Part shown: piece by piece, positions 10,337 through 10,573 of the stretch
Numbering within the stretch: the first letter of the stretch is position 1
How the letters are laid out: each line of letters opens with the position of its first letter
NCBI RefSeq assembly: GCF_001542625.1
Contig: NZ_CP016279.1
Span: forward strand, 10,700,675 to 10,764,674
Direction of reading: 5' to 3'
Origin: Streptomyces griseochromogenes
Lineage (GTDB): Bacteria; Actinomycetota; Actinomycetes; Streptomycetales; Streptomycetaceae
Length of the DNA stretch: 64,000 bases
Notes under the pieces: model-generated
The model's database searches: none
The model's input: only the letters and a program-made list of their open reading frames with translations
What the model was told of the DNA's origin: nothing
Program-made: the position numbers and the translations under genes

Positions 10337-10409
10337 GAGACCTACTCCCTACGCCGGCATTACCCGGTAACAGGTTCGGCGGTCGACGCAGCGGTTTCCG
10401 TCTGCCGAT

Positions 10410-10423
10410 GTTTCCCGTGAAAC
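10410..10423. promoter_or_regulatory. parS: parS site (one mismatch) in the thiC leader
   Basis: GTTTCCCGTGAAAC, one change from consensus, 17 bp from the next site. It lies in the variable P3 arm of the TPP riboswitch. Confidence 0.72.
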
Positions 10424-10426
10424 GTC

Positions 10427-10440
10427 GTTCCACGTGAAAC
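10427..10440. promoter_or_regulatory. parS: parS site (one mismatch) in the thiC leader
   Basis: GTTCCACGTGAAAC, one change from consensus. It forms a close pair with the site at 10410-10423. Confidence 0.72.
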
Positions 10441-10573
10441 ATCGCGAATACGGAGGTCAGCGCCCTCTCAGCCCGGTGCTCCGAGCTCCCGCGTGTGCAA
10501 AGGTGCCTCCACGCTAGCGTCAATTCGGGCGCGGTGAACAGAGGGCCCCTGTCGTTCTTGCGATGATCGGGCG

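Follow-up and report, generated by a model that had tools for sequence, protein, structure and literature searches.

Two described systems have to be compared with the locus reported here: the chromosomal parS sites of Streptomyces, on which the partition protein ParB loads, and the TPP riboswitch (RF00059). The text of one study gives 16 parS sites for S. venezuelae and 24 for S. coelicolor (PMC4852455), and ChIP-seq in S. venezuelae is described as placing ParB at those 16 sites and at one more (17 in total), with spreading over 2.5–3 kb (PMC12511625). The S. coelicolor motif is printed as GTTTCACCTGAAAC, which has CACCTG mid-motif and is not palindromic (PMC4852455, PMC7022226), and this is probably a misprint. 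GTTTCACGTGAAAC, the form printed for M. smegmatis (PMC7022226), is present in 14 exact copies in the genome studied here and was used as the reference 14-mer. As for the riboswitch, the P3 element of fungal TPP aptamers is reported to vary in sequence and length and to be extended in many of them (PMC5882874). Neither the word ‘riboswitch’ nor thiC occurs in the main texts of PMC12511625 and PMC4852455, and a search for literature on parS together with a riboswitch or thiC gave nothing among the matches listed (titles and abstract openings); a site upstream of thiC may be among those given in early papers on parS of S. coelicolor.

The thiC leader and its two near-parS sites

The window, the whole stretch of 64,000 nucleotides that was analysed, carries thiC on the minus strand (8552..10336; phosphomethylpyrimidine synthase, 594 aa; Pfam PF01964 ThiC_Rad_SAM, E 8.6e-188, and PF13667), and directly upstream, as expected for the leader of a thiamine gene, lies a predicted TPP riboswitch aptamer on the same strand (10329..10502; RF00059, 40.2 bits, E 2e-6, model positions 1–105). 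The cmscan alignment covers the full RF00059 model and leaves 70 nt of P3 outside it, and the score is below the curated gathering score of 54.3; the aptamer is not listed by a default Rfam scan of the window or by an RF00059 search of its own genome. The sole gathering-level Rfam match in the window is the Streptomyces sRNA Scr3920 (RF02828, 149.5 bits) at 16631–16756 on the minus strand. Read along the minus strand, the leader consists of GGGCTGAGAGG, an 88-nt insert, ACCTGTTACCGGGTAATGCCGGCGTAGGGAG and the ATG at 10336. The P3 insert (10376..10463, minus strand) is bounded by GGGCTGAGAGG and ACCTGTTACCGGG and was extracted alongside the inserts of 161 other leaders. An AGGGAG at 10345..10350 (minus strand), 8 nt before the ATG, is the likely Shine–Dalgarno sequence on reading of the sequence and lies in the 3′ strand of the aptamer, which suggests that control of thiC by TPP is translational. 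A candidate promoter, TTCACC-16-TAGCGT (10511..10538, minus strand), was also recognized by eye and would put the start of transcription near 10504 and site 1 (below) at about +65, although a consensus promoter scan of the leader found no promoter, at 10511..10538 or elsewhere.

Within the insert two 14-mers, GTTTCCCGTGAAAC (10410–10423) and GTTCCACGTGAAAC (10427–10440), differ by one base each from GTTTCACGTGAAAC, lie 17 bp apart start to start with a 3-bp gap and are both near-perfect palindromes of the kind by which parS is recognized; relative to the 16-mer form of parS, TGTTTCACGTGAAACA, each has two mismatches. The sequence-only reading of this DNA had reported near-parS DNA inside the P3 arm of the thiC aptamer as two one-mismatch sites 17 bp apart, and this was confirmed. 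We refer to the two in the order of transcription, as site 1 (10427..10440, minus strand; GTTTCACGTGGAAC as transcribed, parS with A11G), which starts at offset 23 of the insert and is the conserved parS of the arm, and site 2 (10410..10423, minus strand; GTTTCACGGGAAAC as transcribed, parS with T9G), which is its pairing partner. The equivalents of site 2 in most two-arm relatives are more than one mismatch away from parS.

The 10.76-Mb genome is a single contig and, with each palindrome counted once at no more than one mismatch to GTTTCACGTGAAAC, holds 22 sites, 14 of them exact and 8 with one mismatch; a reversed-pattern control in the same genome gave none. None of the 22 is more than about 208 kb from the record junction, where the window ends, near parB, and because they cluster in this way the near-parS DNA at thiC is not a chance occurrence. 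The thiC locus thus falls inside an ori-proximal parS cluster, its position being set relative to the record junction and parB and not to a mapped oriC. In the window alone there are 17 matches to the 16-mer TGTTTCACGTGAAACA within three mismatches, compared with none in 100 dinucleotide shuffles. Chance resemblance to parS can therefore be ruled out on the shuffles, on the genome-wide clustering with its control, and on the survey of leaders described below. The parB gene lies at 57611..58711 on the minus strand (Pfam PF17762 HTH_ParB 4.5e-36, PF02195 ParB_N 5.3e-35 and PF23552 ParB_C 9.3e-9) and is adjoined by an ORF for a putative ParA-type ATPase (QKGGVGKTTTTVNLA; 58708..59955, minus strand, start uncertain), assigned from its sequence and the gene order; gidB and a yidC-type gene lie next to parB in the window as well. 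Closely spaced parS pairs are found at 46–61/83–98 and 43232–43247/43277–43292 of the window, and pairs 22–47 bp apart (start to start) are found in three other Streptomyces genomes too. The parS-like sites at 3009, 36931, 43232 and 58517 overlap reading frames picked by codon bias, that at 58517 being inside parB and two of the others (36931, 43232) at ends of picked frames.

Distribution of the P3 insert and its parS site

The conserved aptamer motif is present in 390 of 392 Streptomyces genomes. A survey of Streptomyces thiC leaders for parS in P3, which the sequence-only reading had put forward as a check, was carried out on 141 leaders (140 of 150 listed places and that of the window) and was positive, at no more than one mismatch, in 80 of them, 76 having one site and 4 having two; the insert parS is therefore not peculiar to this strain. 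Among leaders from named Streptomyces 11 of 21 have it. It starts at offset 23 of the insert in 78 leaders and at offset 22 in L174, and lies in the second arm only in L209; outside the insert the same surveyed loci contain just 6 parS sites at this threshold in 411,132 bases. The other 61 leaders have no insert parS, and their inserts are 25–72 nt long. In parS-less inserts of 47–72 nt (L091, L096, L102, L105, L106, L207 and others) the P3 hairpins often share a CCGTAC...GTACGG stem and vary at their tips. An extended P3 is common within Streptomyces, so the description of this arm as unusually long, made from the sequence alone, has to be dropped. The same reading had held that related P3 arms of equal length but without parS would speak against it. 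Among inserts of at least 73 nt, all 58 of the first survey and all 55 of the second have a parS at no more than one mismatch, and among the 30 survey inserts of 69–72 nt it is present in 22 and absent from 8, so that such parS-less arms are found only in the shorter range.

The parS-bearing inserts are of two architectures: single-site inserts, of which the survey has 22, each folding as a parS self-hairpin, and two-arm inserts of 88–105 nt (58 in the survey). A second-arm site at no more than one mismatch occurs in 5 of 58 two-arm inserts of the first survey and 11 of 55 of the second; the conserved unit is thus one parS with its pairing arm, and two near-parS sites, as in the window, are a minority state. 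In one leader, L242 (G341), the parS of arm 2 is exact and the site of arm 1 is one mismatch off. On the thiC tree there are at least 4 changes between presence and absence of parS, and 16 changes among four classes of insert. Three Streptomyces genomes without the insert parS element still have 16–20 parS sites each.

Among the samples searched, the element is absent from genera other than Streptomyces. A narrower pattern for it matched 35 of 105 Streptomyces genomes and 0 of 144 genomes of other genera in the same family, figures to be read with the requirement of this pattern for TTTCACGTG and CTGAGAGGRCGNTGA, so that parS variants are missed, and with the 144 being counted irrespective of whether they have an aptamer of that form. 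The lone Kitasatospora leader examined (L022) has the aptamer motif and lacks parS. A class-wide scan for CTGAGAGG...GTTTCAC matched 16 of 28 Streptomyces genomes and 10 of 268 others, the latter at 11 places, and none of the four of these places that were read onward runs into parS.

Constraint on the RNA arm and on site 1

Folding of the leader, and of the insert alone, predicts a long hairpin (10406..10444, minus strand) in which the two near-parS palindromes are paired together through 17 pairs with one A-G mismatch and a 3-nt loop; this hairpin is present, and the conserved base stem absent, in the fold of lowest energy both for the window's leader and for its insert. That the palindromes would fold in the RNA, as had been proposed from the sequence alone, is upheld by these predictions, but the two extra hairpins envisaged are not, as two-arm inserts mainly pair arm to arm to give one long hairpin (106 of 110 distinct two-arm inserts, the other 4 folding as self-hairpins). 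RNAalifold predicts the long hairpin as carried by a conserved UCCGU/ACGGA stem. Across 37 ungapped inserts of 104 nt (36 distinct) 97.2% of the cells of the site 1–site 2 hairpin are paired and there are 18 two-sided changes, compared with 95.8% and 8.0 in shuffles, none of 500 of which reaches either observed value; two of the five measures applied to the long hairpin were unexceptional, namely the number of pairs with a two-sided change (3, reached by 73 of 500 shuffles) and the pair types (84 of 500). Two self-hairpins as the structure of the two-arm inserts were rejected since, unlike the long hairpin, they show no two-sided change and no excess of pairs over shuffles. In 25 single-site inserts two-sided changes occur in 16 cells of the flanking pairs and the base stem, which 0 of 500 shuffles reach, and the sole variation in the inner GUUUC/GAAAC is from U-A to U-G. 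Judged by these patterns, the predicted RNA hairpin of the insert is kept with compensatory changes.

If pairing were all that is selected, both arms should evolve equally. Changes were counted on an enlarged thiC tree for the 105 of 120 two-arm sequences that have one of four alignable lengths, with named loci among them, and 26 fell in the columns of site 1 versus 119 in those of site 2, which argues for a constraint beyond pairing. In the first half of the helix the asymmetry (2 changes in site 1 versus 41 in site 2) can be accounted for by G-U wobble, whereas in the second half (10 versus 31) wobble predicts the reverse; the binomial p of 0.0015 for the latter treats the changes as independent, although on one gene tree they share ancestry. 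Against this, slow change extends to the flank below site 1 (12 changes, versus 33 in its partner), so that the 14-mer does not account for all of the asymmetry between the arms; the base stem comes closer to parity (6 versus 10). Site 1 deviates from parS at positions 4, 8, 9 and 11 only and never at two of them together (89 sequences, L174 and L209 excluded); the shuffle for this one-at-a-time pattern (0 of 20000) ignores relatedness, and neither it nor the Fisher test is used as a probability. The kinds of substitution found at site 1 are among those of the 12 one-mismatch parS sites that lie outside thiC in four genomes (7 A11G/T4C, 3 T9G/A6C, 1 G8A/C7T and 1 A6G/T9C).

Every one of the 113 two-arm inserts (58 and 55) has at least one arm with parS at no more than one mismatch. 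In L209 (G164) site 1 is four mismatches from parS and site 2 a single mismatch, as if parS had been handed over from one arm to the other. The 55 further genomes were collected with a search pattern free of parS, and site 1 was within one mismatch in all 55, the first letters of these inserts having been visible before the count. Across the 113 inserts site 1 is exactly one base off parS in 108, exact in 4 and four mismatches away in 1, in contrast to the other parS sites of four genomes, which are exact in 61 of 73; the difference is large, but shared ancestry makes a p-value for it meaningless. Avoidance of a competing self-hairpin was considered as the reason for this offset and rejected, as arm-to-arm folding persists in the four two-arm inserts whose site 1 is exact. 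The one-base offset may mean that the putative ParB site is a weak one. The evidence as a whole points to a dual constraint, on RNA structure and on DNA sequence.

Interpretation and comparison with known systems

We regard it as probable that the element is a genuine parS, slightly off consensus, lodged in the distal P3 arm of the thiC TPP aptamer and predicted to load ParB. A chromosomal parS would then sit in a part of the aptamer that tolerates it, its palindrome folding in the sense RNA as a self-hairpin in single-site inserts and against a second arm, itself derived from parS, in two-arm ones. As palindromic DNA gives hairpin RNA, the DNA and the RNA reading would both be preserved; such an insert can make P3 longer without affecting the ligand-binding core, and the aptamer with the insert would still sense TPP. 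The thiC-leader site would be one of about 20 ParB loading points in the ori-proximal cluster.

Several other readings were weighed against this. The insert could be an ordinary long P3 hairpin that resembles parS by accident or as a relic; in favour of this are the conservation and covariation of the pairing, the prevalence of arm-to-arm folding (106 of 110) and the P3 hairpins, with inserts of 47–72 nt, of leaders without parS; pairing alone, however, does not explain the near-fixed 14-mer, the difference in rate between sites 1 and 2, the case of L209 or the retention in 55 of 55 further genomes, and we think this quite unlikely. The constraint on sequence would also suit some other sequence-specific factor, binding DNA or RNA, that reads the same 14-mer in place of ParB, as sequence analysis does not identify the reader, but the motif and its variants match the other parS sites of the genome and the locus lies within the parS cluster, which makes such a factor very improbable. 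A regulatory coupling, in which ParB loaded at this transcribed parS impedes the transcription of thiC or is dislodged by it, would link thiamine synthesis with the state of chromosome segregation, as during sporulation. It would fit the placing of the site in the leader between the likely promoter and the thiC start codon, the systematic one-base offset of site 1 if this reflects a tuned, weak site, the repression by P. aeruginosa ParB of promoters next to parS3/parS4 as described in PMC5521831, and the 2.5–3 kb over which S. venezuelae ParB is described as spreading from parS (PMC12511625); yet 61 of 141 leaders have no site, and translational control by TPP would offer no obvious link to occupancy of the DNA, so we consider this coupling rather unlikely. 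The most far-reaching proposal is a dual-coded element, in which the ParB loading site in the DNA is also the aptamer arm in the RNA, the one mismatch is tuned and ParB occupancy modulates thiC transcription or the reverse; we judge it unlikely, but if true it would connect, in some members of Streptomyces, the synthesis of vitamin B1 with chromosome segregation.

On the preferred reading, a candidate parS housed in a tolerant P3 arm, one short sequence has seemingly been selected both as a centromere-like site in DNA and as an arm of a metabolite-sensing RNA. The natural variation found in many species (single, double, second-arm-only and absent sites) offers a test bed for structured RNAs that host DNA signals, and would be useful too for studying how much an aptamer arm tolerates and what ParB does to transcription in Streptomyces. 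The locus also shows that riboswitches carrying an insert of this kind may score under the standard Rfam cut-off.

The thiC-leader site resembles the chromosomal parS sites described for S. coelicolor and S. venezuelae in belonging to an ori-proximal cluster of near-identical palindromes, and is unlike Streptomyces chromosomal parS in lying within a structured leader RNA and in being one base off in nearly all two-arm inserts. The RNA has the aptamer core of RF00059 and its place upstream of thiC, and differs from that family in a P3 extended by the 88-nt insert and a score under the Rfam cut-off. Extended P3 arms are shared with the fungal TPP aptamers, for which the passage in PMC5882874 describes no DNA-level signal, whereas the extension reported here carries parS.
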